From the NCBI RefSeq assembly GCF_000155675.2, contig NC_020911.1, forward strand, positions 3,524,501 to 3,588,500: a stretch of 64,000 bases of DNA, given 5' to 3'. The DNA is from Octadecabacter antarcticus 307. Its GTDB lineage: Bacteria > Pseudomonadota > Alphaproteobacteria > Rhodobacterales > Rhodobacteraceae. Position 1 is the stretch's first letter. Every line of letters begins with the position of its first letter. Shown here one piece after another: positions 17,580 to 43,271 of the stretch. The translations under genes and the position numbers were made by a program. Under the pieces are notes generated by a model. The model saw only the letters and a program-made list of their open reading frames with translations, had not been told where the DNA came from and ran no database searches.

Positions 17580-17991
17580 ATGAGACAGACAACTGGAACA
17601 CGCAAAAGCCCGGGTGAGAAGATCGTCAAAGATATCAAACGGGCGACCCGCAATCATTATTCATCTGAAGAGAAGATTAGGATCGTCTTAGACGGTCTGC
17701 GTGGGGAAGACAGCATTGCCGAGCTGTGTCGTCCACTGCCCGGCAGTGCATGTTTACATGCACGAGAGGGGTGAAGGCATCTCCCAAGGCATCTACTACA
17801 AATGGTCCAAGGACTTTATGGAGGCCGGTAAGAAGCGCCTTGCGGGCGATACCGCCCGCGCCGCCACAACCGACGAGGTGAAGGATCTGCGCCGTGAAGC
17901 ACGTGATCTGAAGGAAGTCGTTGCGGAGCAAACACTTGAACTCCGCTTGCTCAAAAAAAGCATGTTCGACGGTGGGGGCGACCACGAATGA
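17580..17991 (+). pseudogene. IS3 orfA (helix-turn-helix), split by SHIE-1
   Basis: The N-terminal part reads through HYSSEEKIRIVLDGLRGE and SIAELCR, then meets the 37 bp element and stops at TGA. After the element the frame resumes at REGISQGIYYKWSKDFME and continues to the leucine-zipper-like end (EVVAEQTLELRLLKKSMF). Removing the 37 bp gives a normal orfA of about 125 residues. GAGGAGTGGGAC just before the ATG is a good ribosome site. The stop overlaps the orfB start (ATGA), the usual place for IS3 frameshifting. Confidence 0.88.
17734..17770 (+). repeat. SHIE-1, short hairpin insertion element (37 bp)
   Basis: Parts: ca, CTGCCCGGCAG, stem TGCATG, loop ttta, stem CATGCA, c, GAGAGGG. The edges are unambiguous because the orfA codons on both sides (CGT, then C/GT, then GAA) are known from the reading frame. 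There is no duplication of target bases. It is in sense orientation to orfA. Confidence 0.85.
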
Positions 17992-19008
17992 GGTATCCCG
18001 CATCAGAGAAGCTGGAGATCATCAAGCTGGTCGAGGGGTCGCATCTGCCGGCCCGCCTGACTTTGGCCAAGCTCGGCATTCCACGCACCACATTCTACCG
18101 TTGGTATGATCGGTATTGGCAGCGTGGTGAGGCTGGCTTGCAAGACCAATCTCCCAAGCCAAAGCACGTCTGGAACCGTATTCCTGACGAGGTGCGACGT
18201 CGGGTTGTGGACCTTGCGCTGGAAGAGACAGAACTGTCACCGCGTGAACTGGCAGTGACCTTCACAGATAAGGAAAGCTACTTCGTATCAGAGGCTTCCG
18301 TATACCGTATGCTGAAGGCGCATGACCTGATCACCAGCCCAGCCTTCATCGTCATGAAAGCCGCCAGTGCGTTCAAAGACAAAACCACAGCGATCAACCA
18401 GCTTTGGCAAACTGACTTCACCTATCTCAAGGTTCTGGGATGGGGCTGGTTCTATCTCAGTACGATCCTAGACGATTACAGCCGTTACATCATCTCCGCT
18501 GCCCGGCAGGGTATTGCGCAGCAATGTCCCGAGAGGGTGGAAACTCTGCACCAATATGCGGGCTGAGGACGTGACTGACACGCTCGACTTGGCCCTTAAG
18601 GCGTCCGGCTGTGATCAGGTTCACGTCGTTCACAAACCACGGCTGCTGAGCGACAACGGATCCAGTTACGTATCCGGTGACCTGGCTGAGTGGTTGCAAG
18701 GGAAAGGCATGAAGCATTCTCGCGGCGCGCCATATCATCCGCAAACACAGGGCAAGATCGAGCGATGGCATCAAACCTTGAAGAACCGCATCCTCTTGGA
18801 AAACTACTTCCTGCCAGGTGATCTTGAAGCCCAAATTGAAGCATTCGTCGATCACTACAACCACCAGCGCTTCCACGAGAGTCTGAACAACGTCACGCCG
18901 TCTGACGTCTACTTCGGCCGTGACAAAGCCATTCTACAACAAAGGGAAAGGATCAAACGAAAGACACTCGAAGCGCGCCGCTTGCATCACAGCCTGCACG
19001 CCACATAA
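17988..19008 (+). pseudogene. IS3 orfB (DDE transposase), split by SHIE-2
   Basis: The catalytic subunit runs from MRYPASEKLEIIKLVEG, with the first Asp in WQTDFTYLKVL. It is broken by a 40 bp element after DYSRYIIS. It resumes at WKLCTNMRAED, with the second Asp in LLSDNGSSY and the Glu in QGKIERWHQTLKNR. With the element removed, the frame is open for about 325 residues with all DDE residues. No other lesion is seen, so the insertion appears recent or tolerated. Confidence 0.88.
18498..18537 (+). repeat. SHIE-2, short hairpin insertion element (40 bp)
   Basis: Parts: g, CTGCCCGGCAG, stem GGTATTG, loop cgcag, stem CAATGTCC (one G-T pair and one bulge), c, GAGAGGG. It lies exactly between codons TCC and TGG of orfB without target duplication, in sense orientation. 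Confidence 0.85.
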
Positions 19009-19043
19009 TGAAACCAACCAGATGAGCCGAACGCTCTCTTAAT

Positions 19044-19459
19044 TTAAGCCGCCTTTGGTGCCAAAAACCCTGACGACGTACACCCCCGAAGCAGGTAAGG
19101 ATAAATCTTATGCTGGGGGTGTTTCTTGCTCGTGTTTGGCGTCTGATAAATAGGAACCAATCGCATCAGGCGGCGAACGCGATGGCGACCCCATGTGTGA
19201 CCATGACGCTGCATGTGTCGTGCCATTCACTGCCCGGCAGTGCATACGGAGTATGCATGAGAGGGTGCCGAGATCCATACCATGGCGTTTCTAAGAACTG
19301 CTTGTCGATCAATTCCATGAACCGCAGGTTCTCAGCACTCTCGCCTTTTGGAGCGTAATACAGATTTGAACGTGCCAGCGACAGCATCTGGCATTGCCGC
19401 CGCACGCTGACCTTCGGATGGTTTCTTTCAATGCACATCTGCCTGCGATCCTTGCTCAA
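19044..19459 (-). pseudogene. IS3 orfB fragment, truncated and split by SHIE-3
   Basis: It begins at a TTG (SKDRRQMCIERNHPKVSVRR) overlapping the orfA stop. It reaches LETPWYGSR, is broken by the 38 bp element, resumes at QMARHMQRHGHTWGRHRVRR, and runs to KIYPYLLR before unrelated sequence. The integrase core with the DDE residues is absent. Confidence 0.85.
19228..19265 (+). repeat. SHIE-3, short hairpin insertion element (38 bp)
   Basis: Parts: ca, CTGCCCGGCAG, stem TGCATA, loop cggag, stem TATGCA, t, GAGAGGG. Removal restores codons CGG CAA ATG GCA of the minus-strand orfB with no duplicated bases. The element is antisense to the gene, unlike most others. Confidence 0.85.
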
Positions 19460-19774
19460 CGATCCCAGGCGCGTTTCAAAAAATCGCGCTCCACCACCAA
19501 CTGACCAATCGTGGAATGAAGTTTGTCTATCGCGGCGTCATCGACCTGCGCTGGATCACCGCCTCGTTTAGAAAACCCCGCAGCCATATTCTTAATCGCG
19601 GCGCGCTTCCAAGTCCCAATCTGCGTAGCCTCTCAGTGTTTGCAAGCAAACACCTGCCGGTAATAGATGCACGCCGTATTTTTTCGATAACTCCGCCATT
19701 GTCATTTCTTCGCGGATCGCTTCAAGCGCAACCTTGGCCTTGAAATCAGGCGAATGGTTCTTTCGTTTCGTCAT
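19456..19774 (-). pseudogene. IS3 orfA of copy 2, split by SHIE-4
   Basis: It starts [19 protein letters not shown], a typical IS3 orfA helix-turn-helix, and reads to SKKYGVH. A 37 bp element interrupts it. It resumes at [18 protein letters not shown] and ends FLKRAWDR at 19456, overlapping the orfB start. Confidence 0.85.
19629..19665 (-). repeat. SHIE-4, short hairpin insertion element (37 bp)
   Basis: On the minus strand: ta, TTACCGGCAG (diverged, one C fewer), stem GTGTTTG, loop cttg, stem CAAACAC, t, GAGAGG. It is sense to orfA. The stem is a perfect 7 bp despite the changed left block. Confidence 0.8.
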
Positions 19775-19910
19775 TTTGGATCATCTCTTTCACAAGTTGA
19801 TCCACCTTAACTACTGGTCCGAATTCCCGCGACCACCTCTCGATTGAAGTGGTCCGGCAAAACTGGACAGCGTGCTAAGATGTATCCAACACGAACGAAT
19901 GGATACGAGG

Positions 19911-20219
19911 ATGACAAAGCGACGGAACTTTTCAGACAACTTTAAAGCTACTGTGGCGCTTGAGGCGCTGCGCGGTGACAAGACGGTTCAGGAGATTGCG
20001 GCCAAGCGGCAGCTCCACCCAACCCAGGTGAGCACATGGAAACGACAGGCGATCGAAGGCATGGCCGGGGTTTTTACCGACAAGGTCAAAAAGGCTCAGA
20101 ACAAGGCCGGTGAGATTAAAGAGCTGCACGCCAAGATTGGTCAGTTAGCGGTGGAGAACGTTTTTTTGTCACAAGGGCTGAAGACAGGTTATTTCGCTAA
20201 AGCGAATTCACCGGGGTGA
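19911..20219 (+). pseudogene. IS3 orfA of copy 3, C-terminus changed by a hairpin insertion
   Basis: MTKRRNFSDNFKATVALEALRG begins a normal IS3 orfA with the helix-turn-helix VQEIAAKRQLHPTQVSTWKR. Near the end, where LSQGLKR-stop is expected, 30 extra bases add TGYFAKANSPG. ATG at 19911 was chosen over an upstream in-frame ATG because MTKRRN is the family start. Confidence 0.8.
20185..20214 (+). repeat. 30 bp hairpin insertion at the orfA/orfB junction
   Basis: An imperfect hairpin: ATTTCGC, loop taaa, GCGAATT, with outer GGT/ACC pairing. It sits where orfA should end and orfB begin. It lacks both conserved SHIE blocks, so it is listed separately. Confidence 0.5.
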
Positions 20220-21106
20220 GCCCATCAAAACGCCGCGAGATGGTCCGCAAAGAGAACACAAAACTGAGCCTGACGCGCCAGTGTAAGCTGCTCAAGATCA
20301 GCCGTTCGTCGATCTATTACACACCAGTTGGGGTGAATGCTGAGACGCTTAAGCTGATGCATGAGATTGATCGGATATTTACGAAATATCCATTCTTTGG
20401 CAGCCGACAGATAGCAGCCTATTTGCCCCAGTCAGGGTTCTCTGCGGGTCGGCATCGTGTTCGTCGCCTGATGAACATCATGCCTTGCCCGGCAGGCGAT
20501 GCAAAGCATCGCTGAGAGGGGGTTGTAGGCCATCTACAAGGGGCCGAACACCAGCAAGAAGCACCCACAGCACCGCATTTATCCATACCTGCTGAGAAAG
20601 TTGGCAATCACCCGACCCAATCAGGTCTGGTGCAGCGACATCACCTACATACCCGTCAAGAATGGTTTTTTATATCTGGTGGCGATCATGGACTGGGCAA
20701 CGCGAAAAGTGCTGACTTGGCGGCTCTCAAATACGCTGGATGCTAGCTTCTGTGTTGAGGCGCTGGAGGAGGCTATCGCCCGATACGGCAAGCCAGAGAT
20801 CATGAACACGTCCAGGGCAGCCAATACACTGGCGCGGGTTGGATCACAACTTTGACCGAAGCCAACATCAAAATATCAATGGACGGACGCGGCCGCTATC
20901 TCGACAATATCTTCATCGAACGTCTGTGGCGATCCCTGAAGCAGGAGGCCGCTTACTTGCATGAAATCACCGATGGGTTCCAAGCAAAACGGATCATCGA
21001 TACATGGATTGGGTTCTACAACTCAGAACGCCCTCACACGGCCCTTGATAAGCGAACACCGGACATCGCATACTTTGGCCATGCGGAGATACGAAAAGCG
21101 GCATGA
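20216..21106 (+). pseudogene. IS3 orfB of copy 3, degenerate
   Basis: The GTG at 20216 opens a frame SPSKRREMVRKENTKLSL that reaches RRLMNIM and is broken by SHIE-5. The next segment has a TAG at 20526. It then reads NQVWCSDITYIPV (first Asp) to GKPEIMNT, where a one-base loss near 20810 removes the DQGSQY reading. The rest (ISMDGRGRYLDNIFIERLWRSLKQE) contains the catalytic Glu region and ends at 21106. With three lesions it is dead even without the element. Confidence 0.88.
20483..20520 (+). repeat. SHIE-5, short hairpin insertion element (37-38 bp)
   Basis: Parts: cc, TTGCCCGGCAG, stem GCGATG, loop caaag, stem CATCGC, t, GAGAGG(G). It lies after codon ATG of RRLMNIM, in sense orientation. 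Whether the last G belongs to the element is unclear, because the host gene is damaged nearby. Confidence 0.8.
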
Positions 21107-21167
21107 ACATAAATCAGATGCATCTTAGCCAAGCCACATACCTGTCCTGAAAAGCAGGACCACTTCA

Positions 21168-21347
21168 TTGCTACGCCAGTTCTTCCCGAAAGGAACTGAC
21201 CTGGGCTGCCTCAGTCAAACCGCCCTGAACGACGTCGCACGCCTGATGAACGACCGGCCTCGTAAGACACTAGGATCGAGAACTCCCGCTGAAGCCATGG
21301 CCGAAGAACTTACGGCCATTAAATTAATCGTCGCACTTCAATCTTGA
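21168..21347 (+). pseudogene. IS30-family transposase, C-terminal fragment
   Basis: An open frame without a start reads LRQFFPKGTDLGCLSQ, DVARLMNDRPRKTLGSRTP and AEAMAEE, the typical C-terminus of IS30-family transposases. Its N-terminal part was removed where IS3 copy 3 begins. Confidence 0.8.
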
Positions 21348-21348
21348 A

Positions 21349-21570
21349 TCCAAGCAGGCCGAAGAGCAAAGATGGAACCTTTCGACCGACCGGAAGGCAA
21401 CTTTCTATCCAGATTGGGCTGGCGATTTACTCAAGCGAATGGTTGGCGAGGAGAGGCTGGTTGTGCAAACAATTCCATACGGTAAAAACCCCGTGACTGC
21501 TATCTTTGACATTCGCGGATTGGAAACCGGACTACGTCAGCTTTCCAGCACATGTAATTGGACTTTTTGA
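21349..21570 (+). pseudogene. Fragment of a chromosomal gene (C-terminus), hypothetical
   Basis: An open frame without a start ends in ERLVVQTIPYGKNPVTAIF and DIRGLETGLRQLSSTCNW. The C-terminus resembles small secreted proteins ending in a DxxGLxxxLxxLxxxCxW pattern, known from many Rhodobacterales hypotheticals. It was presumably a host gene broken by the IS cluster. The family name is uncertain. Confidence 0.45.
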
Positions 21571-21816
21571 ACGCAAACGCATTTATTTAGGCTGAAAACC
21601 TTTCGTCTATACGTGGTTGGGGCGAGGCGTTTGCCTAGATGCCCTTGAGCGCGGTGCCGCGGAAGCACGGCTAAAAACTTTGAAATAGTATCAAGTGCTG
21701 GATCAGTTTGATAAAAACTCTTGAGATCACGGCCTCACCCCCCCGTAGGGGGTGGTAGTGGCGCACCTGATTTGCAATGATGTGCGCTACCACAGCTCTT
21801 GAGGTGGTCACGCAAA

Positions 21817-22144
21817 TCATTCGGTTAATCCAGTTTCTACCGCGTATTGCTGCAGGATGGCTGGTTTCTGGCACCTCGCAAATGCAGCGAAGGTCATGTG
21901 TGGATGGCTCCTGCATAGGAAGACATTTTTGATCAGATTTGTGCATTTGTCAGAAGCAGTCATGTGTTCCCGCTGCCCGGCAGTTGATTGCAAGGCAATC
22001 AATGAGAGGGGCCTGTTTGCGCGGTTTTTGACCGCTGGCCCTGATGGATTCCGAAAACCAAGTCCCTATCAGCTTTGCGGGCTTTAATGCCCGAACCATT
22101 CGGCGGGGTGTCTTGATTTTGGCGGCAGACTTATGCACCATCAT
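21817..22144 (-). other. IS110 downstream segment, possible bridge-RNA region, interrupted by SHIE-6
   Basis: A minus-strand frame reads MVHKSAAKIKTPRRMVRALK up to GQKPRKQA, then the 40 bp element, then EHMTASDKCTNLIKNVFL to ETGLTE. Removing the element joins QA to EH in frame. Similar translated stretches are often found after IS110-type transposases, so this may be non-coding IS sequence rather than a protein. Confidence 0.35.
21971..22010 (+). repeat. SHIE-6, short hairpin insertion element (40 bp)
   Basis: Parts: cg, CTGCCCGGCAG, stem TTGATTG, loop caagg, stem CAATCAA, t, GAGAGGG. It is antisense to the IS110 transposase. Clean removal gives CAG GCG GAA CAC on the minus strand. Confidence 0.8.
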
Positions 22145-22180
22145 CTCGCAGGTCTTGCTAACTCGTTGTTCCTTTGTCTC

Positions 22181-23194
22181 TCAAACTGTGTGGGGTGTGT
22201 ATGGTTCGTTGCGGGTCAGGACCGCCCAGACAATCCTTGCCGTTTTATTGGCCATAGCGACTGTTGCGACGCGCGCAGGTTTTCGTTCCAGCAGCGATAT
22301 CAGCCATTTGCTGGCGCGCTCCGGGTGGGATTTGGTCTGTCGGACAAGTGATGTCATGCCGACGACGAGCAAGCATCGTAAGTATTGATCACCCATTTTC
22401 GTAATGCGCCCCAGTTTCTCTTTCCCGCCGCTGGACTTGTTTGCAGGCGTCAGACCCAGCCATGCTGCAAACTCACGGCCATTGCGGAACTGATGGCCGT
22501 CACCAATGCTGGCGATGATTGCCGAGGCTGTCGCATCTTCCTTGGCGACCAGCTTGAGCCGTTCTTCATACCACCGGATTCGGGCGTGAAGTGCCACGAG
22601 GTGCTCACACAGGTTATGGATCACCTCATTGGCAATCTCGGGCAGATCTAGCACTTCGCCTACTAAAATATCCTCTGCAAATCCGATGACCCGCGCGAGG
22701 CCCTTCGCGATGTAAACGCCGAACTCAGCGACCATACCACGCAAGCCATTGATCAACTGGGTGCGTTGTCGGACAAGCAGAGCCCGTGCGCGATGCAGCG
22801 ACAGCAGAGCTTGTTGCTCAACGGTTTTTATCGCAACAAACCGCCCTCTCGGTGAATGCAAGCTTCACCTGCCGGCAATGATCGTCGGACGCGTTACCGC
22901 TTCACAAATGGCCTCGGCATCGATGGCGCCAGACTTCCCGCGTTTGACGTATGGCTTGACATATATCGGCGGGATCAGCCGAACATCATGGCCCAACGCC
23001 GTGAGTTCCCGGGCCCAATGATGCGCGCTGCTGCAGGCTTCCATACCAATCAGGCAGGGCTCAATCTTGGAGAAGAACGGCAACAGCTGTGCCCGTCTCA
23101 AAGGCCTGTTGAAGGCGACCTCTTCGTCTTCTGTGATCCCGTGAACTTGAAAAACGTTTTTGGCCAGGTCGAGGCCGATTGTTGTAACTTGCAT
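22181..23194 (-). pseudogene. IS110-family transposase, split by SHIE-7
   Basis: It starts MQVTTIGLDLAKNVFQVHG (first Asp of the RuvC-like DEDD core), with the Glu in LIGMEAC and the Asp pair in GAIDAEAICEA. The 36 bp element follows VTRPT and creates a stop. It resumes at RFVAIKTVEQQALLSLHRAR. The C-terminal Tnp_20 domain keeps GLTPANKSSGGKEKLGRI with the serine region. The frame is otherwise intact. GAGAGGAGCC before the ATG is its ribosome site. Confidence 0.88.
22845..22880 (-). repeat. SHIE-7, short hairpin insertion element (36 bp)
   Basis: On the minus strand: ca, TTGCCGGCAG (one C fewer), stem GTGAAG, loop cttg, stem CATTCAC (one base bulged), c, GAGAGG. It is sense to the transposase. 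Removal restores ACG ATG CGG TTT. Confidence 0.8.
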
Positions 23195-23282
23195 GGGGTG
23201 GCTCCTCTCATTTGCCGTTTGTGACATCTGCAGTATGACGCATTGCGACGTCGGTTGGAGCAGAAGCCATCCACCCCATCAG

Positions 23283-23571
23283 ATTGACAACTTCCCTTTG
23301 TTCTTTTTGATAAAGGCATAAAGCGCAGCGCGATTGCGTCATGAAAGGGTTACGAAACCGATACCGCACGCATCATGTTCGCCCCTGTTGAAAAATGTTA
23401 ATGTTCAACGGAGATAAATAACCGTGATGAAGTTATGTTGCCGGCAACGCTTGGCAACATTTGCAACGATCACAAACTTTACTTCCAAACATAGTCACCC
23501 TTCACAGTGAACAACCCTTGGAATTGCGATGCCTTCTTGGCCTTATTGACAGTCTTCAGATGCAACTTCTA
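23283..23571. other. Gap between the IS110 end and dctM
   Basis: No gene is seen. A hairpin at 23435-23460 (ATGTTGCC / GGCAACAT, 10 nt loop) lies downstream of the dctM stop on the minus strand and could be a weak terminator, though no T run follows. Confidence 0.35.
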
Positions 23572-24879
23572 TCACATTCCAGGAAGCCAGAGAGCCAGTT
23601 GTGGAAACACGATCAACAAGAACACCAGCAGCATCGAGCATCCCATATAGGGAAATGCCGACAAGTAAATCTCGCGCATCGTCGTGTCTTTTGGCGCTAC
23701 CCCCTTCATCACGAACAGCAATAAGCCAAACGGTGGTGTGGTAAAGCTGATCTCAAGCGCGAGTAAGATGATCAAGCCAAACCAGACCGGGTCAAACCCC
23801 AGCGTTGCAGCCAACGGAAAAAAGATAGGCACAGTCAGCAGCATCATTGAAATCTGCTCCATGAACATACCTAACAGCAACAACACGCCAAACATCACCA
23901 GCAGCATTGCAACAGGTGCCAGATCAAACGAAATTGCCCAGCGGATTAGCCCACTTGAGGCGCCAGAAAAGGCCAGCAACTGGCTGAACGTAGCAGAGCC
24001 AAACACGATCAAATAAGCCATCAGCGTCACCCGCAACGCTCCAACCACCGATTTTTTCATCGAGTCCCAGGTCAGGCAGCGAAACAACACCGCCAAAATC
24101 AGTACACCAAGTGCGCCAAACGCCGCTGCCTCAGACGGAGTGATTAAGCCACCGACCATACCGATCACGATCAGAACCATGACGGACAACATCGGTAGCA
24201 CATCACCAAAGAGCAACCGTGCTTTCTGCCCAAAGCTAAGGGTTTCGACATCATAGGCAGGGGCCGCCGATGGATCGATCTTGGTCTGCACATAAATCGT
24301 TGCGATATAGAAACTGGCTAATATCAACCCGGGAATGATGCCCGCAATCAGCAACGCACCCACATCAATCCGCGCAAGTGTCGCTAGAAGAACAGCAAGG
24401 GCAGACGGTGGAATGATGATTGCCAAACCACCCGTACCCAGGATTGGCCCAATGGACATATGTTTCTTATATCCACGCTCCGTCATCTCCGGCACCATTA
24501 AGCTGCCCAAAAGCGCGGTGGATCCCATCGATGACCCGGACAAGGTCGAAAACGCGGTGCCACCAAGAACCGTAACATAAGACAACCGCCCCGGCAGTTT
24601 ACCCAGCAGACGGTCGATTGCATTAAACATCCGCGCGCCAAGCCCTGTGTGAAAGAAGATCTCTCCCATCAGCAAAAACAGCGGTATCGGGACCAAAGCA
24701 TAGTTAGTCAGCCCTCCAAACCCGTTGTTCAGCAGCAGCGTAATCCCTTTGGCACCGCCCATAAAGAACCAGGCGCCCACGATATTGGCTGCAAGAAAGG
24801 CCAGCGCCACGGGCATGCCAACCGCCATCAAAACAAGAACAGACCCGAGCAGCAGGGCCAGCGATTCAAACCATTCCAT
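23572..24879 (-). CDS. dctM: TRAP transporter large permease (DctM)
   Basis: 435 residues, about 12 membrane segments. It starts MEWFESLALLLGSVLVLMAVGMPVALAF and shows family motifs such as FSTLSGSSMGSTALLGSL and GPILGTGGLAIIIPPSALAVLL. It is the ion-coupled transport subunit of a tripartite system that imports carboxylates or related solutes across the inner membrane. The start overlaps the dctQ stop (TAATG). It is the last gene of the gntR-leuC-leuD-dctPQM unit. Confidence 0.95.
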   Translation of the reverse strand: MEWFESLALLLGSVLVLMAVGMPVALAFLAANIVGAWFFMGGAKGITLLLNNGFGGLTNYALVPIPLFLLMGEIFFHTGLGARMFNAIDRLLGKLPGRLSYVTVLGGTAFSTLSGSSMGSTALLGSLMVPEMTERGYKKHMSIGPILGTGGLAIIIPPSALAVLLATLARIDVGALLIAGIIPGLILASFYIATIYVQTKIDPSAAPAYDVETLSFGQKARLLFGDVLPMLSVMVLIVIGMVGGLITPSEAAAFGALGVLILAVLFRCLTWDSMKKSVVGALRVTLMAYLIVFGSATFSQLLAFSGASSGLIRWAISFDLAPVAMLLVMFGVLLLLGMFMEQISMMLLTVPIFFPLAATLGFDPVWFGLIILLALEISFTTPPFGLLLFVMKGVAPKDTTMREIYLSAFPYMGCSMLLVFLLIVFPQLALWLPGM

Positions 24880-25385
24880 TATTCGTGTATCCCTGCTTCT
24901 CCGGAATGCATCAGATCACGACCAAAGACAAAGCGGGAAAATTCGATGGCCATCAGGCCGAAACTAACTGGAAACGTGATAGTAAGTATCCATTTTGGAA
25001 AGTAGTAGGCGCGCACATCCAGATCGTTGCGCACGATGTTGCTGATGAAAAGCTCAGCCCCCTTCCACGCTAGTATCAAAGAGACAGTAACGCAGGCTGC
25101 AGCAACAAGTCGGCTCACGATCCTGCGCATTCTGCTCGGTAATGCGGCTGTGACCAGTTCGATATGCACATGGCCTTTTTCACGTACCAGCCACGGTGCT
25201 CCCAGCATGGTCATGTAAAGGATCGCGTATTCAGATGAGGTAAAAAGCCAGGCAAATGGTTGCAGTCCGGCATTGCGCATCACGACCGACATGATGACTG
25301 AAATCATCAGCCAGACAAGCATAAGCCCCGCAATCCCTGCCATTGCATAAAGGAACCCTTGATATAGTTTGCCCACCAGTTCCAT
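24879..25385 (-). CDS. dctQ: TRAP transporter small permease (DctQ)
   Basis: 168 residues with four membrane helices and the conserved EYAILYMTMLGAPWLVREKGHVHIEL region of DctQ proteins. ATG at 25385 gives MELVGKLYQGFLYAMAGIAG. It forms the membrane complex with DctM and couples to the DctP binding protein encoded just upstream. Confidence 0.92.
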   Translation of the reverse strand: MELVGKLYQGFLYAMAGIAGLMLVWLMISVIMSVVMRNAGLQPFAWLFTSSEYAILYMTMLGAPWLVREKGHVHIELVTAALPSRMRRIVSRLVAAACVTVSLILAWKGAELFISNIVRNDLDVRAYYFPKWILTITFPVSFGLMAIEFSRFVFGRDLMHSGEAGIHE

Positions 25386-25444
25386 GTCCTGCCCTTCTTG
25401 CGTGGTGCGGCGCACCAGTGTTTTGCTGCGCCGCCTTTGGTTTA

Positions 25445-26440
25445 TTATTTGTAGAATAGCTCAATCAGCGTGTCGAAATTACCGTCACCTTGAGGGCTTT
25501 CAGCCATCAGACCTTTCATGCGGTCCCACGTACTTTCAGTCGCTGCTGTCAGAAAGGCAGCGGCTGCATCCCCTTCCAGCGTAACAATTTGCATACCTGC
25601 CGCTTCAAGCGCCGCAAAATCTTCGTCGCGCACTGCTCCCAGCTTTGCAGCACTTTCGGCCTCATGGGCGATTGCAACGTCTTGCAGAATTGTCCGAGAC
25701 TCCTCTGACAAGGAATTCCACTTTTCAAGATTCACAATCGTACCCAAATCGGTTGAGAAAAAGCATGGCTCGATCCGGTAGTTCAGAAATTCATTCCACT
25801 TTAGATCAATCAGGCCGATCTGGGTCCAGCCGGTTGCATCTACTACGCCACGCTCAAGCGCGGAATAGACCTCAGTAGTGGGCAGGTCGATTACTTGGGC
25901 ACCAAGGTAATCAGTGAAGAACGCATTATACACAGCGTTACCACGCAATTTCAGGCCAGATACATCCAGATTGCCTTCAGCATCCAGCGTTGGTGCATCA
26001 CGAGTCCAAAGGTTATAGCAGACGCCAGAATCAAACCAACCAAGGTACTTCACGCCCATCTTTTCCTGGTGAATCTGATCGATCAGCTCAATCCCGCCAT
26101 TGGCGCGGGTTTCGACAGCTGTAAGGTTAGACGTGACCAGCGCGTCTTTTTCGGGCAGCGCACCAGCGTAAAAACTACCAGGCGTATAAACCATATCAAC
26201 GACACCGGCACGCACAGCATCAGGCTGCTGGAACATACCAATAGCCTCTGGCCCTCCACGCACTTCGATCTGGACCACACCTTCACCAGCGACATTTACT
26301 TTGTCGACAAATTCCAAAAATGACTGCGTGTAGATCAGCAATTCAGGAAACGCATGAACGGCTGTGATGGTATCTTCCGCAAAGGCGGCAGACGTCAGGA
26401 CTGTTGTGGCAAGGATACCACCAATAATATGCTGTCTCAT
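25445..26440 (-). CDS. dctP: TRAP transporter solute-binding protein (DctP)
   Basis: 331 residues with a Sec signal peptide (MRQHIIGGILATTVLTSAAFA, cleavage after AFA). The mature part has the DctP pattern YTPGSFYAGALPEKDAL and LKLRGNAVYNAFFTDYLGAQ. An arginine in KLRGN is the usual carboxylate-binding position. It is the periplasmic receptor of the TRAP system. The genes nearby suggest a di- or hydroxy-carboxylate, or an imide-like compound, as ligand. Confidence 0.93.
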   Translation of the reverse strand: MRQHIIGGILATTVLTSAAFAEDTITAVHAFPELLIYTQSFLEFVDKVNVAGEGVVQIEVRGGPEAIGMFQQPDAVRAGVVDMVYTPGSFYAGALPEKDALVTSNLTAVETRANGGIELIDQIHQEKMGVKYLGWFDSGVCYNLWTRDAPTLDAEGNLDVSGLKLRGNAVYNAFFTDYLGAQVIDLPTTEVYSALERGVVDATGWTQIGLIDLKWNEFLNYRIEPCFFSTDLGTIVNLEKWNSLSEESRTILQDVAIAHEAESAAKLGAVRDEDFAALEAAGMQIVTLEGDAAAAFLTAATESTWDRMKGLMAESPQGDGNFDTLIELFYK

Positions 26441-26523
26441 TTGGTCTTACTCCAAGTTAATAGGGTGTCTTCCTGACGCCCTTTTTGGTTTTGGTACCAG
26501 CCTACGAAGGGCACAGTACCGTC

Positions 26524-29320: not shown

Positions 29321-29354
29321 CTTTGCCCCTCTAATTCCATCTGATCCTAACAAC

Positions 29355-29378: not shown

Positions 29379-29422
29379 ATCCTACAAAAGGCAAAATATT
29401 TGACCTATCAATATCCAATAAC

Positions 29423-29442: not shown

Positions 29443-29460
29443 ATTTTATTGGGGGACTCT

Positions 29461-35252: not shown

Positions 35253-36609
35253 TGTAGCCCCCCCTCCCACCAGCTTTGATATACAGATTGGCACTTTGAT
35301 CATCGGCGCAGGGGCTTGCGGTATGGTTGCTGCACTTTCTGCCCATGAGGCTGGCCAAGATGTCTTGTTGATCGAGGCAGATGCCGTCCCAACAGGCTCT
35401 ACCGCGTTGAGCGCCGGGTTAATTCCGGCGGCAGGCACTCGGTTACAAAAGGCCGCTGGAATAACTGATACACCGGCTCAGTTTGTCAAAGACATTCAGG
35501 CTAAGGCACATGATGAAAACAACGCTTGCCTCGTTACTGTGATGGCCGAGATGGCGGCACCTGTTATCGAATGGCTTGCAGAGACTCACGCCCTGCCTTT
35601 TTCCTTGGTAACTGATTTTGATTATCCTGGCCACGCACGACGGCGCATGCATGGTCTGCCCTCTAGGTCCGGACAAGAGTTGATTGACGCGCTACGATCA
35701 CGCATCGAAGCACTAGATATTCCACTGATCTGTAACCGACGTGCTTTGCGGCTCTATGCAGCGGTGAATCGAGTGTATGGGGCAGAACTTACTCTGCCAG
35801 ATGGTAAGACCGAAACGGTAGGATGCGATAGACTGATCTTAGCCTGTAACGGATATGGCGGCAATCGGGAGATGGTCACGAAACATATGCCTCAGATCGA
35901 CAACGCTGTATGGTTTGGTCATGATGGTAATAGAGGTGAGGCAATTGCATGGGGAGACGCTCTAGGGGCCGCGACACGCCATCTTGGCGCCTTTCAAGGG
36001 CACGGTAACGTGGCTCACCCTCACGGTATCTTGATTACTTGGGCCACTATCACAGAAGGCGGATTTCAGGTGAATGTGAATGCAAACCGCTTTTGGAATG
36101 AAAGCCAAGGCTACTCAGAGGCAGCGCGTGCTGTTTTGTCTCAGCCTGATGGGGCGGCCTGGACAATCTTTGATAGTAGGATTGCAGGAGTTGCGCGGCA
36201 GTTTGAAGATTTCAAATCCGCCGAGCGGCAGGGCGCTGTGATGACCGCGGAAACGCTCGAGGAACTTGCCGTTATGGCAGGTCTTCCGACTGCAGCACTT
36301 GTTCAAGCTGTTGTTGATGTTCCCGTTGAAGGGGTTGATGCCTTTGGTCGGGTCTGGGCAGGCAAACCCCGCCTTTCTGCTCCCTTTCACGCGGTAAAAG
36401 TGACTGGCGCACTATTTCATACGCAGGGCGGTTTAGACATTATACCTGCAAGCGCCGCAGTACGACTTAAAGACGGTGGACAGTTTGAGAATTTGTTCGC
36501 CGCTGGCGGTGCCGCCTGTGGCGTTTCGGGAAAAGGTGATAGCGGTTATTTATCAGGCAACGGCTTGCTTGCTGCAGTTACCTTAGGCTTTATAGCGGGG
36601 CGTGGTTAG
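35239..36609 (+). CDS. FAD-dependent oxidoreductase, fumarate reductase/3-ketosteroid dehydrogenase type
   Basis: 456 residues. The N-terminal dinucleotide fold is TLIIGAGACGMVAALSAHEAG. The C-terminal FAD site is LFAAGGAACGVSGKGDSGYLSGNGLL, and TQGGLDIIPASAAVR lies in the substrate region. It is the soluble flavoprotein type that adds or removes hydrogen across a C=C bond next to a carbonyl. It overlaps the lyase gene by 14 bp and closes the operon. The ATG at 35239 is preferred over a TTG one codon earlier. Confidence 0.87.
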   Translation: MESPDVAPPPTSFDIQIGTLIIGAGACGMVAALSAHEAGQDVLLIEADAVPTGSTALSAGLIPAAGTRLQKAAGITDTPAQFVKDIQAKAHDENNACLVTVMAEMAAPVIEWLAETHALPFSLVTDFDYPGHARRRMHGLPSRSGQELIDALRSRIEALDIPLICNRRALRLYAAVNRVYGAELTLPDGKTETVGCDRLILACNGYGGNREMVTKHMPQIDNAVWFGHDGNRGEAIAWGDALGAATRHLGAFQGHGNVAHPHGILITWATITEGGFQVNVNANRFWNESQGYSEAARAVLSQPDGAAWTIFDSRIAGVARQFEDFKSAERQGAVMTAETLEELAVMAGLPTAALVQAVVDVPVEGVDAFGRVWAGKPRLSAPFHAVKVTGALFHTQGGLDIIPASAAVRLKDGGQFENLFAAGGAACGVSGKGDSGYLSGNGLLAAVTLGFIAGRG

Positions 36610-36920
36610 ACAACAGGGATCATTCATCTCTTGTCGCTTCACCACCCGTGTGGAGGCTTTTAGCAATGTCACTACCCTGCATTTCGACTTTGGAGAGTGG
36701 GCATGTTAAATTGATCATTGCTTGCGGGGCCGGGCGGTGGATTTGAAAGTTCAATAAGCACTACGTCAATAAGTGCCCATTCACTTTTGGCATCGCCTCC
36801 CCGACATGCTTCGAGCACACTGCGCTTTCCTAATTCAATTGGGCAGCCTCAATCATCTAGTCGAGGCAAACGAACGCAACGGATCCTCGCTAAACGAAAT
36901 CGTTTCTGAGAGGGTAGGAT
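36610..36920. other. Gap between the two convergent catabolic units
   Basis: No convincing gene. The right end holds the hairpin described at 36882. The rest shows no repeat or IS signature that I can recognise. Confidence 0.4.
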
Positions 36921-36921
36921 C
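36882..36921 (-). terminator. Long hairpin at the end of the CoA-transferase gene
   Basis: Outer pairing GATCCT/AGGATC and inner AAACGA/TCGTTT enclose the stop region of the minus-strand gene. There is no T run, so termination is only likely. It contains TGAGAGGG by chance or kinship to SHIE elements, but the left SHIE block is absent. Confidence 0.4.
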
Positions 36922-38075
36922 TAAGTCGCGTCTTTGAAATGGAACGCTCCTCGTCCAAGGCAAGGTGATCCCGTTTCAAGGCTCAGCTCACTTCGGGAAA
37001 AAATAATCGGTGTGCGAAGACCTTGGATGCCTTCTGGTGCTATTTGCATAGCACGCGCTTGAGTTTGCGGGTCAGAGAGTGCTTCTGCGACGGTGTTTAT
37101 TGGGCCGACTGGAACTCCAGCTTTCTCAAGTAGGGCGATCAGTATTTCTTTGGGGTAGGTTGCGGTGCGATCGGTAATGAGATTGCATAGCGTATCGCGG
37201 TTTTCGACGCGTGCGGGGTTGGTTGCATATGCCTGATCTTTAGAGAGCTTATCCACACCAAGTGCTGAGCAAAGCGCTGCGAATTGTCGGTCATTGCCGC
37301 ATGCGATAATTAAATGCCCATCGGCGGTGGGAAACACCTGATAGGGGACGATACTGGGGTGAGCGTTGCCCAAGCGCGTGGGCAGCTGGTCACCGAGTAG
37401 AAAGCTTGCGGCTTGGTTGGCCAGAACGCCGACTCCGCAATCGAGTAGGGAGAGGTCAACATGTTGGCCTTTCCCTGAGCGGTCGCGTTCTGCGAGTGCG
37501 GCTTGGACACCGATCACCCCATAAAGACCGGCAAAAATATCGATCCAAGCGACGCCTACTTTCTGAGGTTGACCATCAGGTTCGCCTGTTAGGTCCATGA
37601 TGCCGCACATACCTTGAATGAGGAAGTCATAGCCGGGCTGTGTCGCGCGCGGGCCTGACTGACCAAAGCCAGTGACGGAGGCGTAAACAAGGCGAGGATT
37701 CAGGGTAGATAGACTGTCGTAATCAAGGCCAAACTTCTGCAAGCCGCCTACTTTAAAATTTTCTACGAGCACATCAGCGTTTGCGATGAGCGCCTTCAAC
37801 TTGTCGAGATCTTCTTTATCTGAAAAGTCACAGGTAACTGACGTCTTGCCCCGATTGGCTGCATGAAAATATGCGGCAACTTTTTCCGTGCCGCCATCGG
37901 GCAGCTGGCGTTGCACAAACGGCGGGCCCCAGCGACGCGTGTCGTCACCTTCGGGGGCTTCGACTTTGATTACCTCGGCACCCAAGTCCGCCAATGTCTG
38001 ACCGATCCAAGGACCAGCCAGAATTCGGGCTAATTCGATTACTTTAAGACCCTTGAGGGGCGCGCCGTCGGTCAT
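36921..38075 (-). CDS. CaiB/BaiF (class III) CoA-transferase, probably glutarate-specific
   Basis: 384 residues. LKVIELARILAGPWIGQTLADLGAEVIKVE and GYDFLIQGMCGIMDLTGEP (with the catalytic Asp) are family III hallmarks. It lies 12 bp downstream of glutaryl-CoA dehydrogenase, and a LysR gene begins on the far side of that gene. That is the order of succinyl-CoA:glutarate CoA-transferase modules in other proteobacteria. Start is the ATG at 38075 with GGGAG upstream. It would activate glutarate to glutaryl-CoA. Confidence 0.88.
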   Translation of the reverse strand: MTDGAPLKGLKVIELARILAGPWIGQTLADLGAEVIKVEAPEGDDTRRWGPPFVQRQLPDGGTEKVAAYFHAANRGKTSVTCDFSDKEDLDKLKALIANADVLVENFKVGGLQKFGLDYDSLSTLNPRLVYASVTGFGQSGPRATQPGYDFLIQGMCGIMDLTGEPDGQPQKVGVAWIDIFAGLYGVIGVQAALAERDRSGKGQHVDLSLLDCGVGVLANQAASFLLGDQLPTRLGNAHPSIVPYQVFPTADGHLIIACGNDRQFAALCSALGVDKLSKDQAYATNPARVENRDTLCNLITDRTATYPKEILIALLEKAGVPVGPINTVAEALSDPQTQARAMQIAPEGIQGLRTPIIFSRSELSLETGSPCLGRGAFHFKDAT

Positions 38076-38087
38076 CAATAAGGCTCC

Positions 38088-39287
38088 CTATGCGAACGCC
38101 TGCAGGTCAGTAATGGCGCGACCAAGGATCAGGGCGTGCACATCATGGGTACCTTCGTATGTATTCACCGTTTCAAGGTTCTGTGCATGACGCATCACAT
38201 GGTATCCAATCTGAATACCGTTGCCGCCGTGCATGTCACGGGCGTGCCGAGCGATGTCCAATGCCTTGCCACAGTTGTTACGCTTGATAAGCGAGACCAT
38301 TTCTGGCGCAAAACGCCCTTCGTCAAAAAGGCGACCAACGCGCAAAGCGGCTTGAAGCCCGAGCGCAATTTCGGTTTCCATATCGGCAAGTTTTTTCTGG
38401 TAGAGTTGTGTCGCGGCCAACGGTCGGTCGAACTGTTTGCGATCTAAACCGTATTGGCGGGCGCGATGGAAACAGTCCTCGGCAGCCCCCATTACACCCC
38501 AAGAAATACCATATCGAGCACGGTTGAGGCACCCGAATGGCCCGCTCATGCCTTCAGTGTTCGGCAAAATCGCTTCTTCGCCAACTTCGACATTGTTCAT
38601 CACGATTTCACCGGTGACAGATGCTCGAAGGCTAAGTTTGCCAGCTATCTTCGGCGCTGACAGGCCTTTCATACCTTTTTCCAAGACGAAGCCGCGCACC
38701 TTGCCTCCGTGCACTTCTGATTTGGCCCAAACTACAAATACATCGGCAATTGGACTGTTTGAGATCCACATTTTGGACCCGACCAAGCGATAACCAGAGT
38801 CTGTTTTAATTGCGCGGGTTTTCATGCCGCCAGGGTCAGAACCAGCATCGGGTTCGGTCAAGCCGAAGCAGCCAATATATTCGCCGCTGGAGAGCTTGGG
38901 TAAATACTTTTGCTTTTGAGCTTCTGAACCGTAGGCGTAAATCGGGAACATCACCAGCGACGACTGCACGGACATCATCGAGCGGTAACCACTGTCGATG
39001 CGCTCTACTTCGCGTGAAACCAGACCGTAGGACACATAAGATGCACCAGCGCCGCCGTATTCCTCTGGCAAAGTTACACCAAGCAAGCCGCTCTCGCCCA
39101 TTTCGCGGAATATTTCTGGATCAGTGTGTTCGTCCAGATAGGCGTCTTCGATACGCGGTAAAAGGCGGTCAGAGGCGAAGGCACGCGCGGCATCACTTAT
39201 CATGCGCTCTTCTTCTGTTAACTGATCGCTAAGTAAGAACGGATCAGCCCAGTTGAACGGGATGCCCTTATGCGATGATGTAGACAT
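38088..39287 (-). CDS. gcdH: Glutaryl-CoA dehydrogenase
   Basis: 399 residues of the acyl-CoA dehydrogenase family. [19 protein letters not shown] binds FAD and substrate. The C-terminus [19 protein letters not shown] contains the catalytic Glu in YEGTHDVH, a pattern typical of GcdH. It converts glutaryl-CoA to crotonyl-CoA and CO2 in lysine/tryptophan/glutarate breakdown. ATG at 39287 ([13 protein letters not shown]) was chosen over a 75-residue upstream extension. Divergent from the truncated LysR gene. Confidence 0.94.
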
Positions 39288-39399
39288 GATGCCTGCTCCG
39301 ATTTGATAGGTTATATTATGTATTTTGTGTGGGATATCAGCGTGTATCAGTATATTAAAACGACAAAACTGCATATTAACATGTAGAAAAGGAATGATA

Positions 39400-39616
39400 A
39401 TGCGGCAACGTCGTTTCCTCCCCTCGATCAAGTTGCTGATGGCGCTGGATGCCGTTGTGCGCCACAGGTCTGTGACTGTGGCAGCGGCAGAGCTAAACCT
39501 GACGCAGAGCACGGTAAGCCGTCTTATTCTGTCGTTGGAAGATCAGTTAGGGGTGGAGCTTTTTACGCGGGAGCGGCGTCGGCTTATTCCGAATACGGCA
39601 GCCTTGAGTTACCAGA
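39400..39616 (+). pseudogene. LysR-family regulator (gcdR-like), truncated by IS debris
   Basis: Only the N-terminal 72 residues remain: [39 protein letters not shown] is the LysR helix-turn-helix. It breaks after LIPNTAALSYQ, where an IS3-family end begins. Its position facing gcdH suggests it was the regulator of the glutarate module. AAAGGA precedes the ATG. The effector domain is lost. Confidence 0.88.
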
Positions 39617-39729
39617 GAAGTGGTCCTGCTTTTCAGGACAGGTATGCGGCTTGGCTAAGATGCATCTGATTTATGTTCATGCCGCTTTTCGTATCTCCGC
39701 ATGGCCAAAGTATGCGATGTCCGGTGTTC
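39617..39729 (-). mobile_element. Terminal fragment of an IS3-family element (same type as copy 3)
   Basis: 113 bp nearly identical, in inverse orientation, to the right end of IS3 copy 3 (about 21050-21166), beginning GAAGTGGTCCTGC and including the orfB C-terminal codons. Confidence 0.88.
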
Positions 39730-39755
39730 AAATGTTCTTGGACAGATCAACGCTT

Positions 39756-39860
39756 ATTGTTGTAACTTGCATGGGGTGGCTCCTCTCATATGCAGATATC
39801 GACACCTGCAGTATAGCGCATTGCGACGCTGGTTGGAGCAGGAGGCATCCACCCCATCAG
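39756..39860 (-). mobile_element. Terminal fragment of the IS110-family element
   Basis: About 105 bp similar to 23178-23282. It has the transposase start (ATGCAAGTTACAACAAT) and the outer end CCACCCCATCAG. The two independent copies agree on this end, which helps to define the IS boundary. Confidence 0.85.
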
Positions 39861-39988
39861 GTTTCACGGTAGGGGCAAAAAACCTTTAACAACCGCTCGG
39901 GTTTTGAACGGGGTTTTTGGTAGCGTCATAAGAGGTGGCTTGCGAACGTTCCAAAAGGGAGCGTTTGTGGAACAGCCTAGTCATTCAC

Positions 39989-41911
39989 TTAAGAAACTTT
40001 CTTCCACTCTGCCACAAGGGTTCGTAGCATTATCCGTGACGCCTCGGCGTCAGCCACGTCCTCAAACTGCGGTTTCTCTATGTACATCAGGATGCGCTCA
40101 CCCATGCGCTTCCCGACCATCTTGCCTAACCGGTTAGGAAGAAAGCCTGCTGCGACTCGGGCTTTGACCCAAGCCTCAAGCAGTGACGGAATGTTGCCAT
40201 CTTCATCGTTACACCAAACGTGTTCGAACTGGGTCATGATGAAGTCGAGGATCAGCGGGTCAATGTGACGGCGGTCATCTTTGAAGGGGGCCCTGAAGAC
40301 GTCCATGACCAGTTCGTAACTGGGCCAGTAGTGCAGATAGCCTTCGGGTTTGCGGGCGCGCATGACTTCATCGATGGCGACGCGCAGAATGGATTTGGAA
40401 ACCGAATTGGCGGTGATGCAACTTTCATCGCGAAAGGTTGCAATCAGCGGGATTGGTGACAAAGTCATAATGATCTTGGCGTCGGGACGATGTTTTCGAA
40501 TTAGTTGGTAGATCGCGTCGATATTGTCGCGGTTTTCTTCCACCGTAGAGACGCGGAACAGGTGGCGTTCAGGATCGTAGTATTGTTTTGGAACGGTCCG
40601 CCAGAAGACATTTTCTGTTTGCGCGTCGTACCAGACCTCGGATAACCCGAAGGTGAGTATGAAGACATCAGTGTTGTCAAACAGGCCTTTTGTCTGGGTG
40701 CGTACGGCTTCGTCATAACCGTAGACTTCTCTGTCGTAACCATGCCACAGAGCTTCGTCGAAAGATTTGTTTTCCCACGCCCATTCGAATTGCTGACGGA
40801 TGACAAAAGAATTGACCATGCCTTCGCCAATACGCACCACATAGGCATTTTGCGCGTCGGGGTCTTTCGTACTGACGCGGTAGTTGCGCTTGCCCAACCA
40901 TTTGGAGATGTTGGCAGCGAAGCAGCTGCCGAAGGCGGTAATACGGGTATCTTTGTCAATGACGGGGGCGTCCGGGGCCCATCCTTGAACTACGTAATCG
41001 GCGGCTGCTGTGTGCGAAACCATTTGTGTCATATCGGGGTTTTTATTAGGCCGACGTTTGCCTCGGAACCATGGCGAGTGCTGTTCATCGGCACCTTCGA
41101 CTCTGTCGTGGTAGATTGCATTGGCGCCGTGAAGTCTGACAGTGTACAATTCACCTGCCTTCCGCTGCGGCCTAACATCGGTCTTCTGTTTGCTCATTTT
41201 GCGGAATCCAACCTCACCTGTTTTTGACTTCAGAAGTTTTCTTTTAGAAATTCTCTGAAACAGTATTGAACCACCACAGCTTATGCGTTGTACATACGCA
41301 AAATCTTGTTTCGACAAGGCATCAAAGCAAGACTTGACGCCAACCCGCCCTATTTTGCGCGTGTGTATTTCTAAATATACGAAGTCGACGCCCGTCAGGT
41401 CAAGCGGTTCAAACAGATCAATTTCTCCACCTTCGATGTCGACGATCAGTATGTTTGGCCTAAACTCTCGGATTATCTCAGAAAGCGGTAGTGCAGGGAC
41501 TTTTACAGCACTCTCGTAGTCGCCTTCTGGGTCAAGCGATGAAGACCAAAATGGCTCGCGCACGAAAAAATCAATTTCTCCCGGGATTCCTGCATCATTC
41601 AGTGCAACCGCGTTTTTTACTTTAATATTGGCAATATCGTTCACAGCATGAACGCGCTTTGCGAACTCACAAAGACTAGGGTTTCCTTCAATGCACAATA
41701 TGTCCTGAACACCCAATTGCTTTGCAAGGAACGTAGAAATGAAACCAATGCCAGAACCTAGCTCGATGACGCGGTGGGTGGCTTTCACAAATTTGGGAAG
41801 ACCAGAAACCTCGGCTTTTTCATAGCGTCCGCGCCGTAGAGATTCACCAACTTCGGGTGTAACGATCTCTTTGTCGTCAGGTATTTTCACCCCTTGCAAC
41901 TCAAACATCAT
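39989..41911 (-). CDS. FkbM-type methyltransferase fused to a GSCFA domain
   Basis: 640 residues. Residues about 1-205 form an FkbM-like SAM methyltransferase (VIELGSGIGFISTFLA, ILIVDIEGGEIDLF). A charged linker follows (KQKTDVRPQRKAGEL). Residues about 310-600 are a GSCFA (SGNH-like) domain with ITAFGSCFAANISKWL and ILTFGLSEVWYD. GSCFA proteins are often linked to capsule or polysaccharide genes, and the broken glf nearby fits a surface-glycan locus. AGGAG precedes the first ATG. The product may act in the cytoplasm on a sugar or lipid carrier. Confidence 0.82.
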   Translation of the reverse strand: MMFELQGVKIPDDKEIVTPEVGESLRRGRYEKAEVSGLPKFVKATHRVIELGSGIGFISTFLAKQLGVQDILCIEGNPSLCEFAKRVHAVNDIANIKVKNAVALNDAGIPGEIDFFVREPFWSSSLDPEGDYESAVKVPALPLSEIIREFRPNILIVDIEGGEIDLFEPLDLTGVDFVYLEIHTRKIGRVGVKSCFDALSKQDFAYVQRISCGGSILFQRISKRKLLKSKTGEVGFRKMSKQKTDVRPQRKAGELYTVRLHGANAIYHDRVEGADEQHSPWFRGKRRPNKNPDMTQMVSHTAAADYVVQGWAPDAPVIDKDTRITAFGSCFAANISKWLGKRNYRVSTKDPDAQNAYVVRIGEGMVNSFVIRQQFEWAWENKSFDEALWHGYDREVYGYDEAVRTQTKGLFDNTDVFILTFGLSEVWYDAQTENVFWRTVPKQYYDPERHLFRVSTVEENRDNIDAIYQLIRKHRPDAKIIMTLSPIPLIATFRDESCITANSVSKSILRVAIDEVMRARKPEGYLHYWPSYELVMDVFRAPFKDDRRHIDPLILDFIMTQFEHVWCNDEDGNIPSLLEAWVKARVAAGFLPNRLGKMVGKRMGERILMYIEKPQFEDVADAEASRIMLRTLVAEWKKVS

Positions 41912-42232
41912 TCTTAGTTCTCCTAGTTTTCAAACTTAGTGATATAGTATGGCGTCTGCCAAATAGGTCCAATTTAAGCTTGTGTCAGGCATTCATAGTT
42001 TATTAGAGCAGAAAGCGTAAGCTTGCGCTCTTTTCCTACCGTTCCAAAAACCACCGTTTGTTGAACGCATAGAATCCCGTCGGGCCTGTGCCCATCTTAT
42101 CGAAAGCAGTCATTGGCCCTACTGGTACCAAAAGTCGCTTTATTCGTACAGCCGCCCTTGGTCACGACCGCAGCGAGTGTCCGGTTCCCTTCATGTCGAA
42201 ATGTGCGCAATGCAGCATTTGTCACTTCCGGC
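41912..42232. other. Gap before the IS5-family element
   Basis: No gene. A nested hairpin near 42007-42035 (AGAGC...GCTCT with inner AAGC/GCTT, then TTTT) could be a terminator on the plus strand, but no plus-strand gene precedes it. Confidence 0.35.
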
Positions 42233-42299
42233 GGCTTTGTTGCACAAATAGTCTCGTATCAGGGATTCATGTTGTAAATCCAGCATGGTAGCTGGCGTC

Positions 42300-43271
42300 A
42301 TGAGTAAACCTATCGCCCCGATTTACCGCACGAGGAACTGGCCTGAGTATAACAAGGCCCTGAAGCGACGCGGGTCACTGACCATTTGGTTTAACCCAGA
42401 GGTCACTTGGAAAGCTGCGCCTACCGTTGCCCGGCAGTGGTTTGTTTGCAAACCATGAGAGGGGGGCAAACGGGGCCGCCAGCCACGCTATAGCGACGCG
42501 GCGATCCAAGCCTGTCTCACGTTGAAAGTGCTGTTCGGAATGCCTTTGAGGCAGGCGACGGGCTTTGTGGAAAGCCTGTTGAAATTGATCGACCTTGACT
42601 GGGAGGTCCCAGACTTCAGCACGTTATGTCGGCGTCAGAAAAGGCTATCGGTTACCATCCCGTATCAGGGCTCAAAGGGCCCGCTAAACCTCCTTATCGA
42701 CAGTACCGGCATCAAAGTTGAGGGCGAAGGTGAGTGGAACGCTCGCAAGCATGGCGGGCCGAAACGTCGGGTGTGGCGCAAGATACATATAGGGATTGAT
42801 GAAGAAACGTTGGAGATACGCGCGGTCGAAGTGACGAGTAGCAGCATTGGAGACCCACCCATGTTGCCCAACCTTCTCGGTCAGATCACACCAGATCAGA
42901 AGATTGGCAGTGTCACAGCAGATGGGGCATATGACACCCGCAAATGCCATGATGCGATTGCGGCCCGCAATGCCCGTGCTGTCATCCCGCCACGCAAGAA
43001 TGCCAAGCTATGGAAGCCGGATACGCTGGGGGCCAGAGCCCGAAACGAAGCGGTACAGTCCTCAAAGGATCTCGGCCGCGCTCAATGGCGTCGCTTGAGC
43101 GGATACCACCGCAGGAGTCGTGTTGAGACAAAGATGCATTGTTTGAAACTACTCGGGCAGCGCCTGGCCGCACGAGACTTTGACCGGCAAGTTGCGGAAG
43201 TCCAAATCCGTGCCGCGATACTCAACGGCTTCACCGCCCTTGGCATCCCAAACACCGTTACTGTAGGCTGA
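42300..43271 (+). pseudogene. IS5-family transposase, split by SHIE-8
   Basis: It starts MSKPIAPIYRTRNWPEYNKAL and reaches KAAPT. The 39 bp element then adds VARQWFVCKP and a stop. After the element, GKRGRQPRYSDAAIQACLTLK continues to the end. DDE residues lie in LIDSTGIKVEG (Asp), TADGAYDTRK (Asp) and RRSRVETKMHCLKLLGQ (Glu). Removing the element gives one open frame of about 310 residues with no other damage. Confidence 0.9.
42425..42463 (+). repeat. SHIE-8, short hairpin insertion element (39 bp)
   Basis: Parts: cg, TTGCCCGGCAG, stem TGGTTTG, loop tttg, stem CAAACCA, t, GAGAGGG. It is sense to the transposase. Removal gives CCT ACG GGC AAA. Because its length is a multiple of three, the host frame runs into an in-element TGA rather than shifting. 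Confidence 0.85.

Follow-up and report, generated by a model that had tools for sequence, protein, structure and literature searches.

Gene-less hairpin insertions of Octadecabacter antarcticus 307, probably mobile and carried by insertion sequences

The stretch of DNA analysed here (the window: 64,000 nucleotides of the Octadecabacter antarcticus 307 genome, contig NC_020911.1, positions 3,524,501 to 3,588,500) contains eight hairpins of 37-41 bp, in mixed orientation, which form a single family of insertions and lie, every one of them, inside copies of insertion sequences (IS). An initial annotation had located these eight in five IS copies of three families (IS3, IS110 and IS5) and nowhere else in the window, and had judged from the variety of the hosts that the hairpins are not part of any one IS. 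All of that is borne out, a relaxed scan of both strands having returned only the eight and no ninth. A strict form of the pattern finds six exact matches in the window as against none in 100 shuffles; the two inserts that it misses, at 22845 and 19629, differ in the 5' arm, which is shortened in the former, where it reads TGCCGGCAG, and is decayed to TTACCGGCAG in the latter. The annotated design of TGCC(C)GGCAG, stem, loop and YGAGAGGG stands, but what had been taken for two variable bases at the start of the insert is usually CRY (the exceptions are CCT in insert 5 and CTA in the decayed insert 4), and the spans had been given as 36-40 bp.

Inserts 1 (17734..17770, + strand, 37 bp) and 2 (18497..18537, + strand, 40-41 bp) lie in the first and second transposase frames of one IS3 copy (about 17494..19084, + strand). 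A second IS3 copy holds insert 3 (19228..19265, + strand, 38 bp), which is antisense to its transposase, and the decayed insert 4 (19629..19666, - strand, about 38 bp); relatives of this copy carry seven pattern-matching and two decayed hairpins, and its sister copies hold another stem at the very nucleotide that insert 3 occupies. Insert 5 (20483..20520, + strand, 38 bp) breaks the transposase frame of a third IS3. In an IS110 unit (about 21884..23282, - strand), insert 6 (21971..22010, + strand, 40 bp) is in the non-coding end and insert 7 (22844..22880, - strand, 37 bp) breaks the transposase. Insert 8 (42425..42463, + strand, 39 bp) lies near the start of the transposase frame of an IS5 copy (about 42233..43326, + strand). 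Rfam covariance models applied to positions 17000-23500 of the window, where inserts 1-7 are found, match at no element; their sole match in that interval, with an E value of 3.5 and far under the gathering score, is away from the elements.

The inserted unit measures about 36-43 bp and reads CRY-TGCC(C)GGCAG-stem-loop-YGAGAGGG, with a variable number of terminal Gs. Homologous sites without a hairpin could be aligned for 23 of 77 contexts (three of these empty sites were discarded, the subject itself holding an element or a remnant), and they show a precise insert and no target duplication. The empty orthologue of insert 1, in an IS3 on a Sulfitobacter plasmid, reads CCGTC^GTGAGG, and those of insert 2 are in L329 (TCTC^GTGG) and L330. 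At the 18497 site no hairpin is present in either of two IS3 orthologues carried by plasmids, one from Sulfitobacter and one from Octadecabacter; at the 17734 site the former is cleanly empty and the latter aligns poorly. The target is YRTC^G, entered in either orientation: among 62 distinct contexts, chosen with a stricter pattern, C or T occupies position -4 in 52, A or G position -3 in 49, T position -2 in 42, C position -1 in 45, and G position +1 in 45. Elements of related genomes share this preference. The RTC that precedes many inserts is target sequence and is still there in the empty sites. Hairpins are also found within hairpins: in head-to-head composites, at genome positions 3144061-3144095, 3340528 and 3357040, one hairpin lies inside the TGCC^GGCA block of another (at 3144092, for example).

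The stems vary widely (216 distinct cores) yet stay paired. In cores of 16-18 bases the variable positions pair far above shuffled expectation; at a core length of 16, positions 1-4 are paired in 50, 52, 49 and 50 of 53 distinct cores where shuffling predicts 24-34, counts that treat related elements as independent and in which near-invariant positions say little. The exchanges are among G-C, C-G, T-A and A-T, the first pair being mostly G-C or T-A and the second mostly G-C or C-G. Mismatches comprise 24 G-T among 792 pairs, 13 A-C and 29 others, and the rarity of G-T gives little sign of an RNA-style tolerance of G-U. In all five units that were folded with RNAfold, the CCC pairs with the GGG outside the main stem.

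Over the whole genome (two contigs, of 4,812,600 and 62,881 bases) there are 289 strict matches, 136 forward and 153 reverse, while the reversed pattern, which serves as control, has none. Across the bacterial family of the source, 77 of 295 sampled genomes, the source genome included, have the strict motif, and none matches its control; a looser pattern makes some chance matches, with three in its control. Carriers that could be named (80 of at least 120 stretches) belong mainly to Rhodobacterales; Cohaesibacter, Labrenzia, Rhizobium and others also occur, as do a few evident chance matches; 15 of 24 viral stretches lack a stem and look like chance. Literature searches found no published description of the hairpin family, and a word search of PMC3646047 gave no match for repeats, hairpins or palindromes.

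In 800 kb of the source genome every element context was read as IS DNA or IS remnant, many of them by eye from restored frames and the boundaries of IS units. Pfam names a transposase in eight of 20 single-frame flank pieces (one of them weakly), the other 12, like the contexts that were not scanned, being assigned to IS by eye. Elsewhere, too, transposases dominate the Pfam matches, in a set of 86 flank pieces (rve 17, DDE_Tnp_1 seven); many of these pieces have no match, and among the 25 listed of 27 families four are of ordinary genes, seen once each. The hosts, recognised by Pfam or by sequence motifs, include IS3, IS5, IS30, IS110, IS256, IS481, IS21, IS91-type and other elements. The hairpin is chiefly one of Rhodobacterales, and in the genomes read it lives mainly inside other transposons. 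Its confinement to IS, as first proposed, holds for the 800 kb but fails across species: a GC-rich, short-stemmed relative with the same conserved blocks lies in intergenic DNA of Leisingera and other genomes, where it is preceded by a leader resembling TTCATCTT...AAATACTC (L195, L198, L207, L217, L224, L241, L254, L261 and L290). These relatives are possibly a Rhodobacterales repeat of common origin; Rfam finds nothing at seven of them.

IS copies that contain the hairpin have multiplied. The IS5 host of insert 8 is matched over its full length at 23 places in the genome, each of them filled, and ten copies that were compared are 99.9-100% identical, at different places, with flanks that differ at each end. 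Nine IS3 copies, also at different places and in different flanks, are 98.5-99.7% identical to the IS3 copy of the window (ten in all). The IS3 in which seven hairpins match the pattern and two are decayed occupies four places (L170-L172 and genome 3454926-3456532) in two haplotypes, which have different stems at one site and, single-base differences apart, the same stems elsewhere. When two joined empty-site sequences were used as queries against the genome, 33 of 33 full matches spanned the insert and none was empty (scores were obtained for 40 of 49 candidates; another 11 rows are half-matches). For 82 elements in the 800 kb, at 95% flank identity, 30 have at least two filled copies and one has an empty copy; the latter count becomes three at 85% and 14 at 75%. 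In this sample a near-identical empty site exists for insert 7 alone. Transposase genes with long open frames are present in the genome as well, six of 317 aa among them. Two suggestions had been made about such elements, and both survive in modified form: that they are parasites of transposons, since they do behave as transposon passengers, and that they persist only in places where a loss of function has no cost, which is too passive, since IS with the hairpin multiplied afterwards.

The insert often breaks the frame of its host, and its exact removal rejoins transposase frames in many contexts. In 16 clear cases ten inserts are antisense and six sense, and insert lengths fall in all three residue classes modulo 3. 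Exact removal generates a joined frame of at least 250 amino acids in nine of 62 contexts, other offsets in four or five; the effect is modest, since a good number of the hosts have decayed or contain variant elements. The IS5 insert precedes a 270-residue frame in which the catalytic domain is almost complete. These results suggest that some Rhodobacterales IS transposases annotated as pseudogenes carry this insert. Differences within four IS families amount, after one edge artefact was dropped, to 18 non-synonymous and 11 synonymous changes without stops, against a neutral ratio of about 3.3 to 1, and do not separate relaxed from weak constraint. The IS copies are mosaics, with recombination tracts that begin and end near hairpins (genome 3449900-3452700, L010 and 3162500-3165500), and shared inserts therefore need not be ancestral.

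Several classes of small DNA invite comparison. The GTAG repetitive extragenic palindromes (REPs) and REPINs are gene-less tagged hairpins of 20-40 bp, for which movement in trans by an enzyme of Y1 type has been proposed (PMC3733652). The hairpins described here resemble them in having conserved blocks, many stem variants and no gene; their blocks, however, are CRYTGCCCGGCAG and GAGAGGG, without GTAG, the listed elements have CRY and GAGAGGG as ends, and in the contexts read in this genome they reside not extragenically but inside IS or IS remnants, often in transposase frames, as their relatives mostly do. Whereas REPs frame the genes of their RAYT transposases, one of 28 Y1 loci (L092) is flanked by hairpins on both sides. 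The CGTC REPs, among them RPE-4 and RPE-6 of R. conorii and dRS3 of Neisseria, share with the present hairpins an alphaproteobacterial emphasis, 8-9 bp stems, loops of 4-5 and the lack of a known dedicated transposase, and Rickettsia palindromic elements (RPEs) likewise lie inside genes; CGTC REPs have a CGTC tag, a CCA tail and stems whose first two pairs are almost always A-T (PMC3733652). A word search of that paper found no mention of Rhodobacter, Roseobacter or Dinoroseobacter. The present hairpins have neither the CGTC (or TGTC, CCTC) tag nor the CCA tail, their first stem pairs are not those of the CGTC REPs, and their conserved blocks lack the GTTRRRY box of integron attC sites, which have R and L boxes with a GTT core and accompany a cassette gene. 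The hairpin works like REP and RPE repeats and is a member of neither by the features tested, in keeping with the initial annotation, which had set it apart from REP, RPE and attC. Miniature inverted-repeat transposable elements are likewise gene-less and spread in trans, as the hairpins presumably do, but the hairpins are far shorter, have dissimilar ends in place of terminal inverted repeats, and make no target duplication. IS200/IS605-type ends have a hairpin beside a conserved 3' end and insert without target duplication 3' of a short fixed sequence. The hairpin, the lack of duplication and the short fixed sequence, here YRTC^G, are common ground; there is one hairpin and not two ends, no transposase, and no resemblance in sequence to the IS200-type ends of this genome. 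Cyanobacterial small dispersed repeats and mitochondrial by-passing elements are also very small mobile hairpins, the latter lying inside genes and in sense orientation, but they belong to other taxa, and the hairpins here are found in both orientations.

The hairpin is probably mobile and spread as an IS passenger. With moderate confidence, we favour the reading that these are gene-less 36-43 bp hairpins likely moved by a trans-acting transposase of the HUH/Y1 type and likely persisting as passengers of IS. The unit has no gene, so that its enzyme presumably acts in trans, and the lack of duplication together with a short fixed target and a hairpin points to the HUH/Y1 class. A single-strand transposase of that kind would insert the hairpin at YRTC^G; the stem-loop, as single-stranded DNA, would be the substrate that it recognises, and the 3' end, GGG^, could be positioned through pairing to the CCC that lies immediately 5' of the hairpin. 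Filled IS would then move mainly by transposase supplied in trans or by read-through, and would carry their hairpins to new sites and new genomes. If that is correct, these would be among the smallest of mobile DNAs, with other mobile DNA as their main habitat. They would also constitute a tractable system (sites that exist both filled and precisely empty, a target of few bases, stems that can be exchanged, about 300 copies in one genome) that bears on how gene-less hairpins move, a question also open for REPs and RPEs.

Other accounts of the same facts are less likely. The hairpin might insert anywhere and be kept only in dispensable IS, which then multiply by their own accident. IS are indeed the most dispensable DNA, and relatives do occur in the intergenic DNA of other genomes, but intergenic DNA should tolerate 40 bp just as well and not one such context was read in the 800 kb; ongoing insertion also predicts part-filled IS families, yet an empty copy was found for only one of 82 elements at 95% identity. 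We regard this passive account as possible but rather unlikely. In a further reading, doubtful in our view, the hairpin would be a hyperparasite that disarms the transposase and leaves the IS ends mobile, making autonomous IS into high-copy passengers, with the consequence that filled IS lineages displace intact ones; this would explain why all copies of an amplified filled IS have the hairpin, and why some have seven or more. That the hairpin is no more than an intergenic REP-like repeat of Rhodobacterales, entering IS occasionally and having no dedicated mobility, is scarcely credible: the GC-rich intergenic subfamily does have the same conserved blocks, but recognisable contexts in the source genome and in relatives are mostly IS, and an enzyme is suggested by the precision of hundreds of insertions and by their preferred target.

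Were the insertion silent, the hairpin being excised, processed out of the RNA or by-passed by the ribosome, filled IS would stay autonomous. The otherwise nearly intact transposase frame of the seven-hairpin IS3 would fit, as would the failure to find an empty copy of two amplified IS in the genome, and so would a non-synonymous to synonymous rate ratio (dN/dS) of 0.12 between two filled IS copies that share two inserts, one identical and one differing by a base. That figure, from 337 aligned codons with non-coding ends included, is not relied on because the copies compared are mosaics with breakpoints near their inserts. Within-family differences are near neutral, and the occurrence of inserts in both orientations, hardly to be served by one RNA or ribosome mechanism, sets splicing or by-passing low; we consider silent insertion improbable. 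Homing-like spread, in which empty sites are cut enzymatically and then repaired with a filled IS copy as template for the hairpin, would account for near fixation in IS families, for inserts that are identical, or nearly so, where the flanks diverge by 12-23%, and for tract boundaries near inserts in one IS. Such copying would, however, erase stem differences of the kind seen between sister copies, and between diverged IS5 copies, at one and the same nucleotide; there is no conserved long target, and ordinary recombination between IS copies accounts for the mosaics. Homing is accordingly very improbable.

Returning to a hairpin that is moved in trans by a HUH/Y1-type enzyme and carried by IS, we find several observations that weigh against it, beginning with the hosts. 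Two copies of one IS keep a 331-residue frame open through the insert, and some inserts may leave the host not inactivated at all; relaxed constraint is weak evidence for trans-mobilisation; and no copy has been caught moving. (The C-run at the insert with the open frame is C6 in L165 and L166, the two open copies, and C8 in eight others, L167-L169 and five further copies.) As to the enzyme, one finding is in favour of the Y1 class: Y1_Tnp occurs in five of 61 genomes of the same family, these being all three of the element-richest and two of the other 58, and in three of 11 further carrier genomes, but the correlation with element richness may reflect IS load. Genomes with 21, 10 and eight copies by the strict pattern, and one with 17 by the looser pattern, have no Y1_Tnp, and presence of the element thus does not need it. 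Among 28 Y1 loci, 11 have an element-like match nearby and 17 none, and the Y1 elements have ends whose sequences are not those of the hairpins. With no Y1_Tnp in the 21-copy genome and hairpins on both sides at L092 only, the class of enzyme is something that we infer. Finally, no guide that can be named is complementary, by Watson-Crick pairing, to CATC, the preferred target. On the favourable side, the IS200-type elements of the source genome (L085-L104) have hairpin ends with 5' guides for presumed cleavage sites; by our reading GAAA answers fully to TTTC, and TGAG to TTCA in three bases of the four. At the right end of the hairpin unit CCC and GGG pair in folds, and the left site, YRTC, has no full guide match.

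A RAYT-style enzyme drawn from the genome's own Y1 elements was considered and is unsupported after comparison of the ends and a flank scan of the 28 loci. At L092 a shortened Y1 transposase gene has hairpin elements to either side, four of them clustered in 1.5 kb. The window itself contains, at 46053-46400, the Y1 transposase gene of an IS200-type element.

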